Assembly (NCBI RefSeq): GCF_946479715.1 | Contig: NZ_CAMLHF010000133.1 | Coordinates: 1-15,543, forward strand | Direction of reading: 5' to 3' | From: an uncultured Pedobacter sp. | GTDB lineage: Bacteria; Bacteroidota; Bacteroidia; Sphingobacteriales; Sphingobacteriaceae | DNA: 15,543 nt | Shown: piece after piece, positions 5,081 to 14,646 of the stretch | How positions within the stretch are numbered: the first letter of the stretch is position 1 | Layout of the letters: every line of letters starts with the position of its first letter | Notes under the pieces: model-generated | Told to the model about the DNA's origin: nothing | Databases searched by the model: none | What the model saw: only the letters and a program-made list of their open reading frames with translations | Program-made: the position numbers and the translations under genes

Positions 5081-6040
5081 ATGGAAAATCAAATGATATT
5101 TGTTCGTATCGCTACCGTCGCTGATATAAAACATGTTGATGAAATAGTGAAAGAAACTGAATCTTCGGCAATTGCCCGAGGATCCGGGATCGCAAAGCGC
5201 AGTCCCGAATCTATTGCCCAAAAGATAAAAGAAGGAAAAGCAGTTATTGCAGTAACCGGGGGTGGTGAATGGGTTGGGTTCTCTTATTTTGAAGTTTGGG
5301 AAAACAATTCTTTTGTTTCTAACTCTGGTTTAATTGTGGCTCCCAAATTTAGAAATGCAGGAGTTGCAAAGGCCATCAAAGATCGGATATTTAAAATTTC
5401 GAGAAGAATATATCCGGAGGCCAAGATATTTAGCATTACATCGGGAGCGGCTATTATGAAAATGAATTTTCAATTGGGTTTTGAGCCGGTAACATTTGAT
5501 CAAATTACACATGATGAACATTTTTGGGAAGGTTGTAAAAGCTGCATTAACTACAATATTCTTGAGGGTAAAAAAAGATGTAATTGCTTATGTACAGCTA
5601 TGCTATTTGACCCTCATAAAGAAAGTTTTAATAGTTATGCTTTAACACAAGCCACTGAAAAGTCTGAGATAACTCTTGATTGTATTGCTTGTCCGAAATT
5701 AAGCCTGGCCGCTGGCGCAGAGGGAACTAATGCTATTTGCAGTGCTTTGACAGATATTTTATGGTTTTCTGAATATACCTTTCCTATTGAATCCAATTTG
5801 CCAGATCCTGTAAAAATGACTGTTACTAATGTAAATATGGATGGTGGACAGAATTGTAATTCAAAAGAATGCCGATTCACGGTAAATATTGTTTATGATC
5901 ATAATTATACTGAAAAGGAGATTTTAAATACAATTAAAAACCATACAAGATGTAGATTTACCGTAAGACAGGATGTTTTTAACGTTGCTATTATAGATGA
6001 TACCGTCTACGAACAGCAACTTGTCTTGAATAATTGCTAA
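5081..6040 (+). CDS. ArgA-like GNAT acetyltransferase fused to a degenerate M20 (ArgE-type) dimerisation domain
   Basis: A 319-aa two-part protein. Residues 6-180 form a GNAT domain of the kind found in Bacteroidota arginine clusters, where it acts as an N-acetyl- or N-acylglutamate synthase: acetyl-CoA-binding strand and loop GLIVAPKFRNAGVAKAI (83-99) and a Cys-rich end (C152, C155, C167, C169, C171; CNCLCTAMLFDP). Residues about 187-305 align with residues 164-281 of the M20 enzyme encoded at 7598, including FPIESNLP, PVKMTVT and the identical 14-residue block YTEKEILNTIKNHT. The tail contains none of the M20 metal ligands, and the GHAAR motif of the dimerisation domain is replaced. It could mediate self-association or pairing with the intact M20 enzyme. 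The sigma-54 regulator follows by 20 bases. Both parts are clearly recognisable; the activity and role of the tail are inferred. Confidence 0.85.
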   Translation: MENQMIFVRIATVADIKHVDEIVKETESSAIARGSGIAKRSPESIAQKIKEGKAVIAVTGGGEWVGFSYFEVWENNSFVSNSGLIVAPKFRNAGVAKAIKDRIFKISRRIYPEAKIFSITSGAAIMKMNFQLGFEPVTFDQITHDEHFWEGCKSCINYNILEGKKRCNCLCTAMLFDPHKESFNSYALTQATEKSEITLDCIACPKLSLAAGAEGTNAICSALTDILWFSEYTFPIESNLPDPVKMTVTNVNMDGGQNCNSKECRFTVNIVYDHNYTEKEILNTIKNHTRCRFTVRQDVFNVAIIDDTVYEQQLVLNNC

Positions 6041-6060
6041 TATTGTTGAAATTATCAGCG

Positions 6061-7398
6061 ATGCAAAACACCGTTTTAATAATAGACGACGAGAAAAAGA
6101 TCTGTAGCCTGCTAGCGCGCATCATTGAACTGGAAGGCTTTAAGGTTTTTCAGGCAAATACAGGCAAAGAGGGGCTGAAAATTCTGGCTGCTCAAGATGT
6201 ATATGTAGTAATTAGTGATGTAAAACTTCCTGATATTAATGGAGTTGAACTGGTAAAAGAGATCAAGAAAATAAAACCTTATACCGAGGTGATCAATCTG
6301 ACTGCTTTTGGAACAATACAAGATGGTGTAATGGCGATGCGCAATGGTGCTTTTGATTACATCACGAAAGGGGATGATAATGATAAAATCATCCCCCTTG
6401 TTTATAAAGCATTAGATAAAGCTAAACTCCAGTTTAGGATTAGTGAACTGGAAAATAAAGTAGCCAGAAAGTATGATTTTACTGGCATATTAGGGCAGTC
6501 TAAGGCTATTAAGGAAGCAATAGCACTATCGGAAAAGGTTGCCGGTACAGATACAACTGTTCTTTTGCTTGGAGAAACAGGCACAGGAAAAGAAGTGTTT
6601 GCACAAGCAATACATTATGAAAGTTTAAGGAAAATGAAGCCATTCGTTGCCGTAAACTGTAGCGGATTTAATCATGAACTTTTAGAAAGTGAATTGTTTG
6701 GTCATAAAGAAGGTGCGTTTACTGGAGCTGTAAGAGATAAAAAAGGTTTGCTGGAAGAAGCTAATGAAGGGACTTTGTTTCTGGATGAAATTGGTGAGAT
6801 GAACCTGGATTTGCAAGCAAAATTACTTCGTGTATTGGAAAATCAGACCTTTATAAAGGTAGGAGATACCCAAACCAGTAAAGTGAATGTCCGTATTATT
6901 GCTGCAACCAATAGAGATTTAAAAGCAGAAGCAGAAAGTGGGAAGTTCAGATTAGATCTTTATTATCGACTTTCGGTATTTTCCATAGAACTTCCGCCTT
7001 TATCTCAACGGAAATCAGATATTTTACTAATCGCCAAACATTACTTAAAAGAGTTTGCGAATAAAGTAAACAAGCAGGAACTTGTAATGGGGGATGATTT
7101 TGCTGAACTACTCCTTAAGCATAATTGGAAAGGGAATATCAGGGAGCTAAAAAACGTAATTGAGCGTGTGGTTATTCTTGCCGATGGGAACTCAGTTACT
7201 GCGAATCTGTTGCCTTATGAGTTTCACGCTTTGGAACAACAGTCAGGGGAGACAGATCCCATGAAAATGGAACTTGTTGAAAAACAGCATATTATTAAAG
7301 TATTAACTTATACCAAAGGAAACAAGACAGAGACTGCCCGTTTATTGGGTATAGGACTTACTACTTTATATCGAAAAATTGAAGAATATAAAATTTAG
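6061..7398 (+). CDS. Sigma-54-dependent response regulator (NtrC/AtoC type)
   Basis: A 445-aa regulator with three domains: receiver (about 1-120; acidic pocket Asp9/Asp10, phospho-acceptor Asp53, Thr81, Lys103), AAA+ activator (about 141-370; Walker A GETGTGK at 171-177, GAFTGA sigma-54 contact loop at 218-223, Walker B LFLDE at 239-243, arginine-rich sensor region near 297-303), and a Fis-type helix-turn-helix (about 408-442). All elements for phosphorylation-controlled activation of RNA polymerase-sigma54 are intact. ATG at 6061 gives a receiver starting in the usual place; an in-frame TTG at 6034, overlapping the previous stop, would add nine poorly fitting residues. No histidine kinase is in the same operon. 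The K+ sensor KdpD lies 7.5 kb downstream and no kdpE is seen, so a role in controlling the kdp genes is a reasonable inference. Confidence 0.9.
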   Translation: MQNTVLIIDDEKKICSLLARIIELEGFKVFQANTGKEGLKILAAQDVYVVISDVKLPDINGVELVKEIKKIKPYTEVINLTAFGTIQDGVMAMRNGAFDYITKGDDNDKIIPLVYKALDKAKLQFRISELENKVARKYDFTGILGQSKAIKEAIALSEKVAGTDTTVLLLGETGTGKEVFAQAIHYESLRKMKPFVAVNCSGFNHELLESELFGHKEGAFTGAVRDKKGLLEEANEGTLFLDEIGEMNLDLQAKLLRVLENQTFIKVGDTQTSKVNVRIIAATNRDLKAEAESGKFRLDLYYRLSVFSIELPPLSQRKSDILLIAKHYLKEFANKVNKQELVMGDDFAELLLKHNWKGNIRELKNVIERVVILADGNSVTANLLPYEFHALEQQSGETDPMKMELVEKQHIIKVLTYTKGNKTETARLLGIGLTTLYRKIEEYKI

Positions 7399-7597: not shown

Positions 7598-8704
7598 ATG
7601 AACAAATTATATGACCAGGCTGTTGAACTACTGGAAAAACTAATTAAAATCCCTTCATTTAGTACAGAGGAAAAGCTAACTGCAGATTGTATTGAATCCT
7701 TCTTAAATGACCATGAAGTATTTACTATTCGTAAATACAATAACATCTGGTGTTACAATAAATACTTTGATCCTTCAAAACCCATTATTTTATTGAATTC
7801 CCATCATGATACAGTGCAACCGAATGATCAATACACTAACGATCCTTTTGTACCATTGATTAAAGATGGAAGACTATATGGCTTGGGCAGTAATGATGCA
7901 GGCGGGCCTTTGGTTTCACTCATTTCCGCTTTCCTTTTTTTCTATGAAAGGAAAGACCTTCCTTTCAATTTATGTTTGGCCGCAACTGCAGAAGAAGAGA
8001 ATTCAGGCAGAAAAGGGATTAAATCAATTCTGGATGATTTAATGCCTATTTCATTTGCAATTGTGGGAGAGCCTACGAATATGCAGATGGCAATTGCTGA
8101 AAAAGGCTCTATGGTATTGGACTGCGTTTCAACTGGTAGGCCCGGGCACGCCGCAAGAGAAGAAGGAGATAATGCCATTTATAAAGCATTGAAGGACATT
8201 CATTGGTTTTCAAGCTATGTTTTTCCTATTGAATCTAATCTGCCAAATCCAGTAAAAATGACTGTTACCCAGATCAATGCGGGGATACAGCATAACATTG
8301 TTCCGGGCGAATGCAGCTTTACTGTTGATATCAGATTTGACCATAGCTATACAGAAAAGGAAATACTAAATACAATTAAAAATCATACCTTTTGTGATAC
8401 CACGCTTCGTCCTAACGTACTCACACCATCAGCAATTGATCTTCTGCACCCCCTTGTAAGAACTGGTATTGCCATAGGCAGGAAAACATATATCTCTCCA
8501 ACCAGTTCTGATCAGGGCTGGCTTGAAATGCCATCTGTTAAAATAGGCCCCGGAGATTCTGCCCGCTCTCATTCTGCTGATGAATACATTTATCTTGCAG
8601 AAATAAGTGATGGGATTACAATTTATATCAATCTCTTAGAATCTATATTCCCATATCTTGTTAATGATTCTAGTCTGGATAAGCAATTATACACCTCCGC
8701 ATGA
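7598..8704 (+). CDS. argE: M20 metallo-hydrolase, ArgE-like (N-acetylornithine/N-acetylcitrulline deacetylase type)
   Basis: A 368-aa cytosolic zinc deacylase of the Bacteroidota ArgE type, which removes the acetyl (or acyl) group from an ornithine or citrulline intermediate. Catalytic elements are intact: HHD at 69-71, the bridging Asp100 in GSNDAGG, Glu132/Glu133 in AEEE, metal Glu158 in VGEPT, His184 in the GHAAR motif of the dimerisation domain, and His325 in the C-terminal SHSADEY. The start at 7598 gives the normal N-terminus (MNKLYDQAVELLEKL); the in-frame ATG at 7538 would add 20 residues not expected for the family and lies upstream of the candidate promoter. Residues 164-281 have a diverged copy at the end of the GNAT gene 1.5 kb upstream. 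Other arginine genes are absent from the window, so this may be a paralogue with a substrate outside arginine synthesis. A terminator follows. Confidence 0.85.
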   Translation: MNKLYDQAVELLEKLIKIPSFSTEEKLTADCIESFLNDHEVFTIRKYNNIWCYNKYFDPSKPIILLNSHHDTVQPNDQYTNDPFVPLIKDGRLYGLGSNDAGGPLVSLISAFLFFYERKDLPFNLCLAATAEEENSGRKGIKSILDDLMPISFAIVGEPTNMQMAIAEKGSMVLDCVSTGRPGHAAREEGDNAIYKALKDIHWFSSYVFPIESNLPNPVKMTVTQINAGIQHNIVPGECSFTVDIRFDHSYTEKEILNTIKNHTFCDTTLRPNVLTPSAIDLLHPLVRTGIAIGRKTYISPTSSDQGWLEMPSVKIGPGDSARSHSADEYIYLAEISDGITIYINLLESIFPYLVNDSSLDKQLYTSA

Positions 8705-9085: not shown

Positions 9086-10804
9086 ATGAACACAGAATTA
9101 CTTGGAATTGTTGCGACCTACCTGCTTACACTGGTCATCGCTATTCCGCTAGGCAAGTACCTGGCAAAGGTATTTGCCGGAGAAAAAGTTTGGACAGACT
9201 TTTTAAAACCTATTGAATCCGCAATCTATAAGCTTTCTGGTATTAACCCCAAAGAAGAGATGAATTGGAAGCAGCACATGAAAGCGCTGTTAACCATCAA
9301 TCTTGTATGGCTTGTATATGGCTTCTTTGTTCTGATGTATCAGGACAAGCTTCCATTGAATCCTGACGGAAACCCGGGAATGACACCGGATCTTTCCTTT
9401 AATACAATCATCAGTTTCGTAGTAAACTGTAACCTGCAGCACTATTCAGGAGAATCGGGTGTAACTTATCTTACTCAGCATTTTGTACTGATGTTTCTCC
9501 AGTTTGTGAGTGCGGCTACAGGCCTTGCTGCTGCTGTAGTTTTCTTTAAAGCTTTCAGAGATAAAACAAGTACTAAACTTGGTAACTTTTGGGAATTCTT
9601 TGTAAAATCTATTACGAGGTTATTACTCCCATTGTCATTGGTAATGGCAACTATTCTTGCCTTTAACGGTTCTCCAACAAGTTATGAGGCTAAAGATCAG
9701 TTTATTTCTGTTCAAGGAGATACCGTGAATGTTTCAAGAGGCCCTGCAGCTGCTTTTATTGCCATTAAGCACTTAGGTACTAATGGTGGTGGATGGTTTG
9801 GTGCAAACTCTACCCACCCTTTAGAAAACCCGAATTACATTACCAATACGGTTGAATTGGTTGCACAGGTAATTATTCCTATTGCAATGGTGATCGCATT
9901 TGGTATTTTCATCAGACGTAGAAGACTTGCGTGGATGATCTTTGGGGTCATGACGATTGGTATGCTGCTGCTTTTGATCCCAACAGTTAGCTCTGAACTT
10001 GGAGGAAATCCTGCCATTGCAAAAATGGGCATTTCGCAAACCACTGGGGCCATGGAGGGTAAGGAAGTTCGTTTTGGTCCGGCCATAACCGGCTATTGGA
10101 GCACAGTGACTACCATTATCTCTACCGGTTCCGTTAACGGGATGCATGACAGTACCATGCCATTAACAGGTGCATGGCAATTACTGGGCATGATGATTAA
10201 CTCCTTTTATGGAGGTTGTGGTGTAGGTGTGCTGAATTACTTTATCTACCTGATCATTGCTGTATTTATTTCGGGATTGATGGTAGGAAGAACACCGGAG
10301 TTCCTTGGACATAAGGTAGAGGCAAGAGAGGTTAAGATTGCCGCATTAATCACGTTGCTAAGTCCCTTTCTAATATTGGCAGGAACTGCAATAGCCAGTT
10401 ATGTATTTACCAATCATGGTGAAGCTGCATGGGCAGTACAACCTAAGAACTGGTTAAACAATCCAGGCTTTCACGGTTTCTCGGAGATGCTGTACGAAAT
10501 GACCTCATCCAATGCGAATAACGGTTCTGGTTTTGAAGGTCTTGGTGACAATAATGTTTTCTGGAACGTAGCCAGTGGCTTTGTACTATTCCTTGGCCGT
10601 TTCCTACCGATTATAGGCCCTGTTGCCATTGCAGGTTTGCTGGGTTCTAAAAAATATATCCCGGAGTCTGCTGGTACCTTGAAAACAGATACTTTGACTT
10701 TCAGTCTGATGACTTTTGCAGTGATCATTGTACTGAATGCACTTTCTTACTTCCCTGCCCTGGCTTTAGGCCCATTGGCAGAATACTTTACCATGCTTAA
10801 ATAG
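9086..10804 (+). CDS. kdpA: KdpA, potassium-channel-like subunit of the K+ P-type ATPase
   Basis: A 572-aa inner-membrane protein (E. coli KdpA is 557) of the SKT superfamily that binds and conducts K+ for the Kdp pump. The four pore-loop regions are recognisable: NCNLQHYSGES (114-124), GTNGGGWFGANSTHPLENP (231-249), TGSVNGMHDS (347-356) and SSNANNGSGFEG (474-485). About ten hydrophobic segments are present. ATG at 9086 is preferred; an in-frame TTG at 9077, directly after the kdpF stop, would add three residues. kdpB follows six bases after the stop. Selectivity-loop glycines are intact, so a functional pump is expected. Confidence 0.97.
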   Translation: MNTELLGIVATYLLTLVIAIPLGKYLAKVFAGEKVWTDFLKPIESAIYKLSGINPKEEMNWKQHMKALLTINLVWLVYGFFVLMYQDKLPLNPDGNPGMTPDLSFNTIISFVVNCNLQHYSGESGVTYLTQHFVLMFLQFVSAATGLAAAVVFFKAFRDKTSTKLGNFWEFFVKSITRLLLPLSLVMATILAFNGSPTSYEAKDQFISVQGDTVNVSRGPAAAFIAIKHLGTNGGGWFGANSTHPLENPNYITNTVELVAQVIIPIAMVIAFGIFIRRRRLAWMIFGVMTIGMLLLLIPTVSSELGGNPAIAKMGISQTTGAMEGKEVRFGPAITGYWSTVTTIISTGSVNGMHDSTMPLTGAWQLLGMMINSFYGGCGVGVLNYFIYLIIAVFISGLMVGRTPEFLGHKVEAREVKIAALITLLSPFLILAGTAIASYVFTNHGEAAWAVQPKNWLNNPGFHGFSEMLYEMTSSNANNGSGFEGLGDNNVFWNVASGFVLFLGRFLPIIGPVAIAGLLGSKKYIPESAGTLKTDTLTFSLMTFAVIIVLNALSYFPALALGPLAEYFTMLK

Positions 10805-10810
10805 ATTATA

Positions 10811-12841
10811 ATGAAACACTCATCTAATAAATTATTTGAACCTGCATTAGTGCAAACTGCACTGAAACAGTCCTTCATCAAACTTGACCCCAGAGTAATG
10901 GTTCGCAATCCGGTCATGTTTACCGTAGAGATCGGTACCATAATCATGGCTTACGTAACTATATACTCCATGAGTAACAAAGGCCAGGGATCACCACTAT
11001 ACAATTTTTTTATCTTTTTAATTTTGCTGCTTACTGTTCTTTTTGCAAATTTTGCTGAAGCCATTGCCGAAGCCAGAGGAAAAGCACAAGCGGATAGTTT
11101 AAGGAAAACGCGTGAAGAAACACCAGCTAAGGTGGTTCTGGCAAATGGAAAGATCGAGATCCGTTCTTCAAACCAATTAAAAAAAGGAGATGTATTTTTC
11201 TGTGAGTCCGGAGATACCATTCCAACCGATGGAGAGATTATTGAAGGTATTGCTACCATTGATGAATCTGCTATTACCGGTGAGTCGGCTCCGGTAATCC
11301 GTGAATCGGGAGGTGATAAATCCTCTGTTACCGGGGGCACAAAGGTGCTTTCAGACCATATCAAAGTTCAGGTAAATACCCAGCCAGGCGAAAGTTTTCT
11401 GGATAAAATGATTGCCCTTGTTGAAGGTGCATCAAGACAAAAAACACCGAATGAGATTGCATTGACCATATTGCTTGCCAGTTTTACCCTGGTGTTCATT
11501 ATTGTTTGTGTTACCTTAAAGCCATTTGCTGATTATGCAAATACCCCAATTACTATTGCTGCATTGATCTCATTGTTTGTTTGTTTGATTCCGACCACTA
11601 TCGGTGGACTGCTGTCTGCAATTGGTATTGCCGGGATGGATAGGGCATTGCGTGCCAACGTAATTACCAAATCAGGTAAAGCTGTGGAAACAGCAGGTGA
11701 TATTGACGTGTTATTGCTGGACAAAACAGGTACTATTACTATTGGTAACCGTAAGGCAACTAATTTCTACCCTACTTCGGGGATGGATAAGAAGCAATTC
11801 GTTGATGCCTGTATGTTAAGTTCCCTTGCTGATGAAACCCCTGAAGGTAAATCCATCATAGAGCTTGCAGTATTACAAGACCATAAATTACTGACTGCAC
11901 CTGAAGGGTCTAAGTTCATCAAATTTACTGCTGAAACCAGGTCAAGTGGTTTGGACACTCCGGATGGAAAAAGAATCCGCAAAGGCGCATTTGATTCTAT
12001 CCGTAACATTGTTTTAAAAGCTGGAAATCCATTTCCAATAGACATTGAAGAGCAGGTGAAAATTATTGCCAATAATGGGGGAACCCCGCTTGTTGTTTCT
12101 GAAAATGAAAAAGCACTTGGAGTAATTGAATTACAGGATATCATTAAGCCTGGTATTAGTGAGCGTTTTGAGCGCCTGCGCAAAATGGGTGTAAAAACAG
12201 TAATGGTTACCGGAGACAATCCGCTTACCGCAAAATTCATAGCAGAGAAAGCTGGTGTAGATGATTTTATTGCTGAGGCTAAACCTGAAGATAAAATGAA
12301 TTATATCAAAGAAGAACAAGCTTTAGGTAAACTTGTAGCCATGATGGGTGACGGTACCAATGATGCCCCTGCACTTGCACAAGCAGATGTTGGTGTGGCT
12401 ATGAATAGTGGTACGCAGGCAGCTAAAGAAGCAGGTAACATGGTGGATCTGGATAATGATCCAACAAAGCTGATAGAGATTGTGGAAATCGGTAAACAAT
12501 TGCTTATCACCCGCGGAACACTTACTACCTTCTCTATTGCAAATGACGTAGCGAAGTACTTTGCGATTGTACCTGCATTGTTTATTGCTTCGATTCCTGC
12601 ATTACAGAGTTTAAATATTATGGGGCTGCATAGCCCGGAGAGTGCGATTTTATCAGCTGTAATTTTCAATGCAATCATTATCCCGATCCTGATCCCACTA
12701 GCCTTAAAAGGTGTTGAATATAAACCAATCGGTGCCAGCGCACTATTGCGTAGAAATCTACTGATCTATGGGCTTGGCGGCGTGATAGCTCCATTCATAG
12801 GTATCAAACTTATTGATATTGTTGTAGGCTTATTTGTTTAA
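10811..12841 (+). CDS. kdpB: KdpB, catalytic ATPase subunit of the K+ pump
   Basis: A 676-aa P-type ATPase (E. coli KdpB is 682) that hydrolyses ATP to drive K+ uptake through KdpA. Phosphorylation motif DKTGT with Asp304, actuator motif TGES (156-159), membrane motif IPTTIGG (260-266), nucleotide-binding [15 protein letters not shown] and hinge motif [16 protein letters not shown] are all intact. The serine of TGES (Ser159) corresponds to the residue whose phosphorylation inhibits the E. coli enzyme at high K+, so that control could operate here. It is tightly packed between kdpA (6 bases) and kdpC (12 bases). Nothing is unusual. Confidence 0.97.
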
Positions 12842-12853
12842 AAAATAGAAATC

Positions 12854-13420
12854 ATGAAAAAATATATCATACAATCCTTACGCTTAACACTAGTACTTAT
12901 GGTATTACTGTGCGTTATTTATCCATTGATTGTTGCTTTTGCCGGTGGCTTCTCAAAAGGAAATGGTGGAGGCGAAAAGATCACCAAAAATGGTAAAGTT
13001 GTTGGTTATGCCGCAATTGGCCAATCGTTTACCAAACCAGAGTATTTCTGGGGAAGACCTTCAGCGGTTGGTTATAATGCTGCAGGCTCTGCCGGCTCCA
13101 ATAAAGGGCCTTCAAATCCTGATTACCTAAAAGAGGTTTCGAGCAGAATTGACACTTTGCTAAAATACAACCCATCTTTGAAAAAGGCTGATATTCCAGC
13201 CGATATGGTCACTGCTTCAGGTAGTGGTTTAGATCCAAACATTTCTGAACAGGGTGCCATTATCCAGATCAAAAGAATTGCGGCTTATCGTAAAATAGAT
13301 GAAAAGACAGTAGCTGAACTAGTAGTTAAAAATACTCAGGGGCCATTGTTAGGACTATTTGGTCCTTCATCCGTAAATGTACTTAAGCTTAACCTTGCCC
13401 TGGATGAGCTAAAAAAATAG
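12854..13420 (+). CDS. kdpC: KdpC, periplasmic-facing subunit of the K+ pump
   Basis: A 188-aa protein (E. coli KdpC is 190) with one N-terminal membrane helix (about residues 8-32) and a soluble domain that supports K+ binding by KdpA. Family motifs are present: AIGQSF, YFWGRPSA, AGSNKGPSNPDY, ASGSGLDPNIS and the C-terminal LNLALDEL. It starts 12 bases after kdpB and completes the kdpFABC set. A hairpin-rich spacer follows before the porin gene. Confidence 0.95.
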   Translation: MKKYIIQSLRLTLVLMVLLCVIYPLIVAFAGGFSKGNGGGEKITKNGKVVGYAAIGQSFTKPEYFWGRPSAVGYNAAGSAGSNKGPSNPDYLKEVSSRIDTLLKYNPSLKKADIPADMVTASGSGLDPNISEQGAIIQIKRIAAYRKIDEKTVAELVVKNTQGPLLGLFGPSSVNVLKLNLALDELKK

Positions 13421-13575: not shown

Positions 13576-14646
13576 ATGAAAAGAATAATATTATTAGCCG
13601 GAGCCCTATCAACAGGATTATTTGCCAACGGCCAGGAAACATCAAAAATCAAAGTGAGTGGTTATCTGGAAACTTATTTCGGTTACGATTTTAATAAACC
13701 GACAGATAATAACAGACCTGGATTTATCTATTCTCATAACCGCCATAACGAAATGAATTTAAACCTGGGTTTCATTAAAGGGAATTATGATAATGGAGTC
13801 ATCAGGGCAAACGTAGCTGTAATGGCGGGAAGTTATGCCAATGCAAATTTAGCGGCGGAACCTGGGGTATTAAAGAACATCTATGAAGCAAATGCTGGGG
13901 TGAAACTTTCCAAAACGGCAAATTTATGGCTGGATGCGGGAATTTTCTCTTCACATATTGGTTTTGAAAGTGCTGTCTCTAAAGATTGCTGGGTATTAAC
14001 AAGAAACATTTCATCAGAAAATACACCTTATTATGAATCGGGTGCAAAAATTACCTATGGTACAAGCGACGGAAAGTTTACTGCTGCCGCATTTTATTTG
14101 AACGGATGGCAAAGAATTACCCGTCAGAACGGAAATAGCCAGCCAGCCGGTGGTGTACAATTGACATGGAAACCAACGGATAAAATTACGGTCAACTATA
14201 GCAATTACCTGGGAACGGAAGGTGCCGACTCTATACGGGTAACACGGTTTTATCATAATGTTTATGGGATATTCCAGGTAACTGATCAGTTTGGATTGAC
14301 TCTTGGCTTTGATTACGGAACGCAGCAGAAAACAAAAGGAAGCAGCGACAAAAATGAAGTTCTTTCGCCTGTTGCTATTGCTCAATACAAGATCAACAGC
14401 AACTGGGCTGTTGCCGCAAGAGGAGAATACTATCAGGATAAGAACGGTGTTTTTATTGCTACTGGAACACCTAATGGCTTTAAAACAACTGGATATTCCC
14501 TTAATGTGGATTACGCTCCTGTGAGTAATGCAGTAATCAGACTGGAAGGTAAAATGTATAGCAGTAAAGACAAAATATTTGTACGTAATTTGAATGCTGT
14601 GGATAACAATGCTGCGGTTACAGCAAGTATTGCTGTTGCTTTTTAG
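13576..14646 (+). CDS. Outer-membrane porin, Bbp2/OmpL-like beta-barrel, linked to kdp
   Basis: A 356-aa protein with a signal peptide (about residues 1-19, ending near FANGQ). The rest has the alternating pattern of an outer-membrane beta-barrel and ends in Phe, as barrel proteins usually do (VTASIAVAF). VSGYLETYFGYDFNKP near the mature N-terminus, SHNRHNEMNLN, and repeated strand-turn units fit the Bbp2 (putative beta-barrel porin-2) family. Its place between kdpC and kdpD suggests it lets K+ cross the outer membrane when the high-affinity pump is on. The leader (13530-13575) is A/C-rich with CAACAACAACAA and lacks a Shine-Dalgarno sequence. Porin fold is likely; K+ specificity is inferred from context only. 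Confidence 0.85.
   Translation: MKRIILLAGALSTGLFANGQETSKIKVSGYLETYFGYDFNKPTDNNRPGFIYSHNRHNEMNLNLGFIKGNYDNGVIRANVAVMAGSYANANLAAEPGVLKNIYEANAGVKLSKTANLWLDAGIFSSHIGFESAVSKDCWVLTRNISSENTPYYESGAKITYGTSDGKFTAAAFYLNGWQRITRQNGNSQPAGGVQLTWKPTDKITVNYSNYLGTEGADSIRVTRFYHNVYGIFQVTDQFGLTLGFDYGTQQKTKGSSDKNEVLSPVAIAQYKINSNWAVAARGEYYQDKNGVFIATGTPNGFKTTGYSLNVDYAPVSNAVIRLEGKMYSSKDKIFVRNLNAVDNNAAVTASIAVAF

Follow-up and report, generated by a model that had tools for sequence, protein, structure and literature searches.

Why should an N-acyltransferase carry, at its C-terminal end, the dimerisation (lid) domain of an M20-family deacylase with none of that enzyme's catalytic domain? The question is posed by a 15,543-nucleotide stretch of an uncultured Pedobacter sp. 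(contig NZ_CAMLHF010000133.1 of assembly GCF_946479715.1; hereafter the window), in which an open reading frame (ORF) at 5081..6040 encodes a 319-amino-acid (aa) protein made of a GNAT domain and an M20 lid, with genes for a response regulator, an intact M20 deacylase and the Kdp proteins downstream, all on the forward strand. The tail is maintained by purifying selection, and we consider it probable that the lid is a selected dimerisation module of some kind. As to its partner, pairing of the acyltransferase with itself is the reading that we tentatively prefer.

The lid domain and selection on it

The GNAT domain occupies residues 1-178 (5081..5614) and is followed by a variable, poorly conserved linker, residues 179-192 (5615..5656), whose predicted local distance difference test (pLDDT) values fall below 50 at residues 181-192. 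The lid follows as residues 193-306 (5657..5998). Aligned with the corresponding domain of the M20 enzyme encoded downstream, it has 57% identity, an alignment that rules out chance similarity and bears out the paralogy proposed, for residues 187-305, in a preliminary description of this DNA. Identity to the M20 enzymes that adjoin the GNAT in other genomes is 41-51%, and to the ArgE lids of the genus 35-42%. Peptidase_M20 found no match in the fusion at E ≤ 0.1; the tail consists of the lid only, with no two-zinc catalytic domain, in agreement with the earlier remark that metal ligands are absent. The Pfam lid profile M20_dimer (PF07687) gives the window tail 12.0 bits, below its gathering cut-off of 21, and matches 7 of the 16 lid rows at E ≤ 1 (best 1.2e-05); structure prediction and the phylogenetic tree (below) place the tail with this family by its β-α-β-β-α-β fold and by common descent. 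The preliminary description had named the lack of a stable tail fold as a point that would count against a function; in single-chain prediction the tail adopts the lid fold.

In M20 lids two loops point towards the active site of the partner subunit; both are lost from the lids studied here. The His of the GHAA motif is kept in 1 of 22 lid rows vs. all 17 M20 rows, and the HN pair in none of the 22 vs. 17 of 17 (P0032, P0031, and P0034 being left out of this comparison), which extends to the other lids the loss of the GHAAR motif described earlier for the window. These substrate-facing loops are the part of the lid least conserved relative to M20 (17-19% identity). Residue 220 (5738-5740) is Cys in all 21 lid rows that have the column and Tyr in all 17 M20 rows.

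Selection on the tail was estimated as the nonsynonymous-to-synonymous rate ratio (omega) under a codon model in which long branches are partly saturated. Across 11 fusions, the window included, tail omega is 0.100 (0.075 for the six nearer sequences, 0.134 for the five farther ones), compared with values of 0.040 in the GNAT part and 0.038 in the regulator gene. Neutral evolution is rejected for the full set (log likelihood, lnL, −3049.3 with omega free vs. −3276.5 at omega = 1; twice the difference ∼454), for the six nearer fusions alone, which served as a check on saturation (−1366.1 vs. −1491.8; 251), and for the five farther ones (173). For five ORFs encoding the lid only, omega on long branches is 0.200 (lnL −2009.9 vs. 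−2060.4 at omega = 1). Constraint within the tail is greatest from lid helix 1 to strand 2, residues 214-252 (5720..5836), the counterpart of the dimer-interface segment of DapE, where omega is 0.037, as low as for the GNAT part and the regulator; the C end of the tail is loosely constrained (0.303), and the substrate-facing loops are not the most constrained region among the fusions. Purifying selection thus acts on the tail, most strongly on its interface segment, and a module maintained in this way probably serves in pairing or regulation. From two blocks of 30 codons, with about ten synonymous differences and one amino-acid change, the preliminary description had argued for protein-level selection rather than recent copying or decay, and hence for a function of the tail. 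A recount returned exactly those figures, and the tail's rate ratio among the fusions, whose elevation would have told against this view, is low, in support of both arguments. Nei–Gojobori (NG86) synonymous distances are uneven along one gene (for instance 0.11 in the tail and 0.42 in the GNAT part between genomes G077 and G135), which may reflect local recombination among close relatives.

Distribution and origin in Pedobacter

We surveyed 145 genomes of the genus, one per species and several of them drafts; G001 is the closest to the window, 29% of whose sampled words it shares. A paralogue of the GNAT was found at E ≤ 1e-75 in 72 of these, giving 73 loci with the window; a full M20 gene lies directly 3′ of the GNAT in 56 loci, and a kdp gene or the regulator falls within the stretch read in 62. 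The fusion recurs in ten genomes (G098, G001, G077, G085, G135, G089, G060, G110, G012, and G088), and is hence not unique to the strain, the outcome on which the earlier interpretation depended. At least five others carry a lid-only ORF of 121-162 aa, located between the GNAT and the regulator in G014 and G029, and between the regulator and kdpA in G081, G086, and G018, loci that also hold an intact M20 gene; this search listed matches down to E ∼2e-29, and weaker lids may be missed. The lid ORF adjoins the regulator gene in all 16 lid loci, the window included. A protein collection contributed seven fused relatives (P0001-P0006 and P0008), the closest of which, the 319-aa P0001 from Pedobacter panaciterrae, is annotated as hypothetical and has a tail 91% identical to that of the window, and nine short relatives (P0031-P0039), two of which, P0031 (Pedobacter hartonius by its database name) and P0034 (P. 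westerhofensis), represent the same loci as G086 and G018. The 119-aa lid protein P0038 begins much as the GNAT domain ends (MIFNP vs. MLFDP) and is possibly a lid released from a fusion.

Ten further genomes and seven database proteins rule out a strain-specific accident or an assembly artefact, and a plasmid-borne unit is rejected, with 0 plasmid records covering 80% of the query. In the wider family, a lid profile at E ≤ 1e-36 matched 1 of 25 genera (60 of the 399 genomes in the draw). Of the 15 known lid genomes, five (G089, G060, G012, G018, possibly others) were neither drawn nor among the matches listed, and absence of the lid outside the genus is not proven.

Further reductions occur at the same place. 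In locus L116 (G032) a 232-aa lidless GNAT retains the C-terminal SNNY of the fusions and the same 3′ end, which looks like a secondary in-frame loss of the lid, and G072 has no M20 gene at this position of the operon. A 177-aa truncated M20 ORF in L182 (G063) has the look of a pseudogene of recent date; because its GHAA motif is kept it was not counted as a lid protein, although it was retained in the tree.

That tree comprised 95 lid domains (LG+G4), G030_M203 having been dropped beforehand as an assumed duplicate. All 16 lids form one clade (ultrafast bootstrap, UFBoot, 100) nested among the GNAT-type M20 enzymes and away from the ArgE outgroup. Support is 93 for the lids with the larger M20 group, 83 once the G154-type group is added, and 100 at the next node; the exact sister of the lid clade is uncertain because branches are long, and the tree alone does not put the lids beside the G154-type M20s. 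Within the clade, the lids of G081, G086, and G018 group with the window's fusions (support 99), and all fusions plus these three have a support of 77. A different M20 group contains the M20 genes that lie 3′ of the regulator in the window, G001, and G098. The window copy has 98-99% identity to those of G001 and G098, the tails being 91-92% identical, and a second M20 of G160 groups with these three (support 74); this type of M20 has perhaps spread recently.

The 3′ ends of the genes bear on where the fusion arose. Positions 6021..6063 span the last codons of the fusion, its stop, the leader, and the start codon of the response regulator, and were compared as ungapped base identity over 43 bases. 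Eleven fusions and the lidless G032 gene share 34-39 of 43 bases with the M20 genes of five operons of the order GNAT, M20, response regulator (G154, G124, G065, G160, and G161), vs. 17-19 with the M20 genes of G102, G116, G129, G082, and G143, which by eye look shifted; the value is 33 for G029, and 14 for G014 when no gap is allowed. These shared ends point to an origin of the fusion on the spot, out of the M20 gene of a GNAT-M20-regulator-kdp operon; what is fused would then be the remainder of the local M20 gene after removal of both catalytic halves. An ancestral operon would have run from the GNAT through an M20 deacylase and the response regulator to kdp; the M20 gene would have lost both halves of its catalytic domain, leaving the inserted lid and, in the fusions, the last few residues, and the lid would have become a separate small protein or been joined in frame to the GNAT, retaining its helix-strand dimerisation face and shedding the two loops that face a partner's active site. 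The order of these deletion steps is our reconstruction. Together with the lidless G032 gene, the series (full M20, lid-only, fused lid, lid lost again) would represent the stepwise birth of a domain by deletion at one operon position within one genus.

Candidate partners of the lid

The best Pfam match of the GNAT domain scores 17.4 bits, below the cut-off of 23.6, and a structure search with the full model matches GNATs including the N-acetylglutamate synthases 2r8v and 5yge. The domain is a paralogue of a second, arginine-cluster GNAT found in the genus, with which it shares 51-56% identity, including 55% identity to one encoded directly upstream, in L025, of an argG-like ORF that we take to be argininosuccinate synthase. 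We likewise assume 3ct9 to be the enzyme named in the two articles on this pathway. In Bacteroidetes the arginine-cluster GNAT is an N-succinyl- or N-acetylglutamate synthase, and a 3ct9-like enzyme is the deacylase of the pathway (PMC7311316, PMC9026213). By its kinship with the arginine-cluster enzyme, the fusion GNAT probably acylates glutamate or a related amine.

Precedent for the lid as a contact surface is found in M20 enzymes. The Campylobacter DapE dimer is built by helix 5, strand 11, and adjoining loops, and lid helix 1 and strand 2 correspond to that helix and strand (PMC12731327); E. coli ArgE dimerises exclusively via its lid (PMC11270798), and removal of the lid abolished the activity of two DapE enzymes (PMC4012986). 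Two fusion proteins would thus pair lid-to-lid through helix 1 and strand 2, whereby a GNAT of the N-acyl-glutamate-synthase type would become a dimer, much as a dead kinase-like domain oligomerises the classical N-acetylglutamate synthase (NAGS). Given that precedent and the fused enzyme H-NAGS, pairing of two GNATs appears the likeliest role of the lid, and we adopt it tentatively.

Several observations weigh against it. We infer that the lid dimerises, and that its partner is another fusion protein, from a conserved face and from the M20 precedent, and binding of a different protein would likewise leave helix 1 and strand 2 constrained. The full-length model has a predicted template modelling (pTM) score of 0.53, and its two-domain arrangement is not confident. 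The fusions do not form one clade within the lids, implying that fusion arose more than once or was undone. The lid is absent from 58 of the 73 loci or genomes with this GNAT, and G032 lost it in frame while keeping the C-terminal residues of the fusion. Lids are unfused in 5 of 16 cases, and G018 has a lid and an M20 with no GNAT paralogue at E ≤ 1e-75; a role purely as glue between GNATs therefore fails to cover every case.

The constant companions of the lid are instead an ArgE-type enzyme (in all 15 lid genomes searched, the window's not among them) and the regulator, rather than the GNAT or the GNAT-type M20. The latter occurs in eight of the 16 genomes with a lid (the window, G098, G001, G077, G135, G081, G086, and G018), and in 5 of 11 fusion genomes; in the other eight (G085, G089, G060, G110, G012, G088, G014, and G029) it was not found, the only such enzyme found there being of the ArgE type, 57-60% identical to the GNAT-type M20. 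Pairing with the GNAT-type M20 therefore cannot be the general function, and the heterodimer with the neighbouring deacetylase suggested in the preliminary description is unsupported as a general explanation.

The constancy of ArgE and the regulator keeps pairing with ArgE, as a brake or a scaffold, and a role in kdp regulation in consideration. The main rival to self-pairing of the GNAT is that the lid pairs with a catalytic subunit of the ArgE type (or of the GNAT type where present), restraining deacylation or docking the acyltransferase on the deacylase; the dimer would be half dead, because the lid no longer has the loop residues with which an M20 lid completes the active site across the interface. 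Retention of the interface segment and loss of the partner-facing loops are as expected of such a non-productive partner; stand-alone lids lie beside the regulator in the three loci that also hold an intact M20, and in the two blocks the window tail and the window M20 have almost the same amino-acid sequence. The patchy occurrence of the GNAT-type M20 and the low identity of the tail to ArgE lids tell against this rival, which we regard as possible and distinctly less probable than self-pairing. A bolder variant, somewhat more doubtful again, would have lid-only proteins, free or borne by the GNAT, pair with M20 deacylases through their native face without supplying the residues required in trans. 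Such proteins would be the microProteins of bacteria, lowering deacylation while acylation is on, and would do so from an operon for potassium stress (kdp).

Use of the lid as a sensor of a small molecule or protein, in the manner of ACT domains with their ferredoxin-type fold, tied to the kdp regulator or to an acyl-amino-acid pathway and with dimerisation secondary, seems unlikely. It would account for the invariable position of lid ORFs beside the sigma-54 regulator gene, whether or not a GNAT or M20 gene adjoins them, and for the nearly invariant C220 of helix 1 in place of the M20 Tyr; the substrate-facing loops, however, have diverged from M20 and are not the most constrained part of the fusions. 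Loss of the two loops facing the M20 active site also weakens the earlier suggestion that the tail senses the deacetylase substrate.

That the tail is a decaying relic, in frame by luck and heading for loss, is very improbable. Tail omega does exceed that of the GNAT part (0.10 vs. 0.04), the C end is loosely constrained, and reduction has gone further in G032 and G072; decay is contradicted by the rejection of omega = 1 in all three sets of fusions, by an interface segment constrained like the GNAT and regulator, by the predicted lid fold, and by open frames in 17 fused sequences from genomes and databases. Least credible of all is recent copying from, or homogenisation by, the downstream M20, for which the tail's higher identity to that enzyme than to GNAT-adjacent M20s elsewhere could be cited, together with a synonymous difference of 0.34 of amino-acid-identical codons in the two blocks, on the low side of the 0.23-0.67 seen against other genomes' M20s, and which is rejected because 0.34 lies inside the range for unlinked M20s and the tails cluster with other lids rather than with their own-genome M20.

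The kdp locus and comparison with known systems

In the window the genes run in the order VOC protein, tRNA-Cys, GNAT-lid fusion, response regulator, M20, kdpA, kdpB, kdpC, BBP2 porin, and lastly the first part of a presumably KdpD-like ORF. The regulator (6061..7398) is of the sigma-54-dependent NtrC type by its Pfam domains (Response_reg, Sigma54_activat, and HTH_8), and we take it to differ in this from the OmpR-type KdpE. The intact M20 deacylase (7598..8704, start codon chosen by comparison with relatives) is of the ArgE/DapE type by Pfam and NCBIfam and, from the tree, apparently not the tail's parent. Within 9086..13420, KdpA and KdpC are assigned by Pfam, and the ORF between them is presumably KdpB by position, with relatives in other loci. 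The BBP2 porin (13576-14646) sits between kdpC and the KdpD-like ORF, and porin relatives occur 3′ of kdpB in several other loci. At 24-2599 the C-terminal part of a phosphatidylglycerol lysyltransferase (LPG_synthase_C) is followed directly by a VirJ-type hydrolase (Pfam), to our mind resembling a lipid aminoacylation and hydrolysis pair. Scans of the window gave 30 matches to a sigma-54 promoter pattern vs. 36 expected, and 22 sigma-70 matches vs. 17.9 expected; neither was informative. Among the records listed, literature searches yielded nothing relevant to M20 proteins reduced to the lid, to fusions of GNAT and lid, or to any connection of kdp with acyl-glutamate.

Compared with the M20 lid of ArgE/DapE enzymes (3ct9 of Bacteroides thetaiotaomicron; Pfam M20_dimer), the fusion tail is without the catalytic domain, the GHAA His, and the HN loop. 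The GNAT half would resemble the ArgA2 or N-succinylglutamate synthases of Bacteroidetes (BT3761 type, whose role is from the literature) by way of the related genus GNAT near an argG-like ORF, but the fused copy resides in a kdp locus and carries a lid in some species only. In the classical N-acetylglutamate synthase ArgA, the kinase-like (AAK) domain provides the oligomer and the binding of and response to arginine, and in H-NAGS a short NAGS is fused to the C-terminus of the argininosuccinate lyase ArgH (PMC4490483). As in both, a GNAT, here of probable acyl-glutamate-synthase type, is joined to part or all of another arginine-pathway enzyme. Unlike in ArgA, the Pedobacter donor is a deacylase lid, C-terminal and apparently acquired by in-place deletion; unlike in H-NAGS, only the lid survives of the other enzyme. 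The fusion would add a third kind of domain joined to such GNATs, after the kinase-like domain and the lyase: a deacylase lid.

MicroProteins, or small interfering peptides, are dominant-negative proteins consisting of a dimerisation domain only, which regulate plant transcription factors. The lid-only ORFs of Pedobacter, in at least five of 145 genomes and with nine short database relatives, are similar in that each has been reduced to what, in larger relatives, is the dimerisation domain, and they are nested among the M20 enzymes in the tree. With them it could be tested cleanly whether the dimerisation domain of an enzyme can, by itself, act as a regulator in bacteria.
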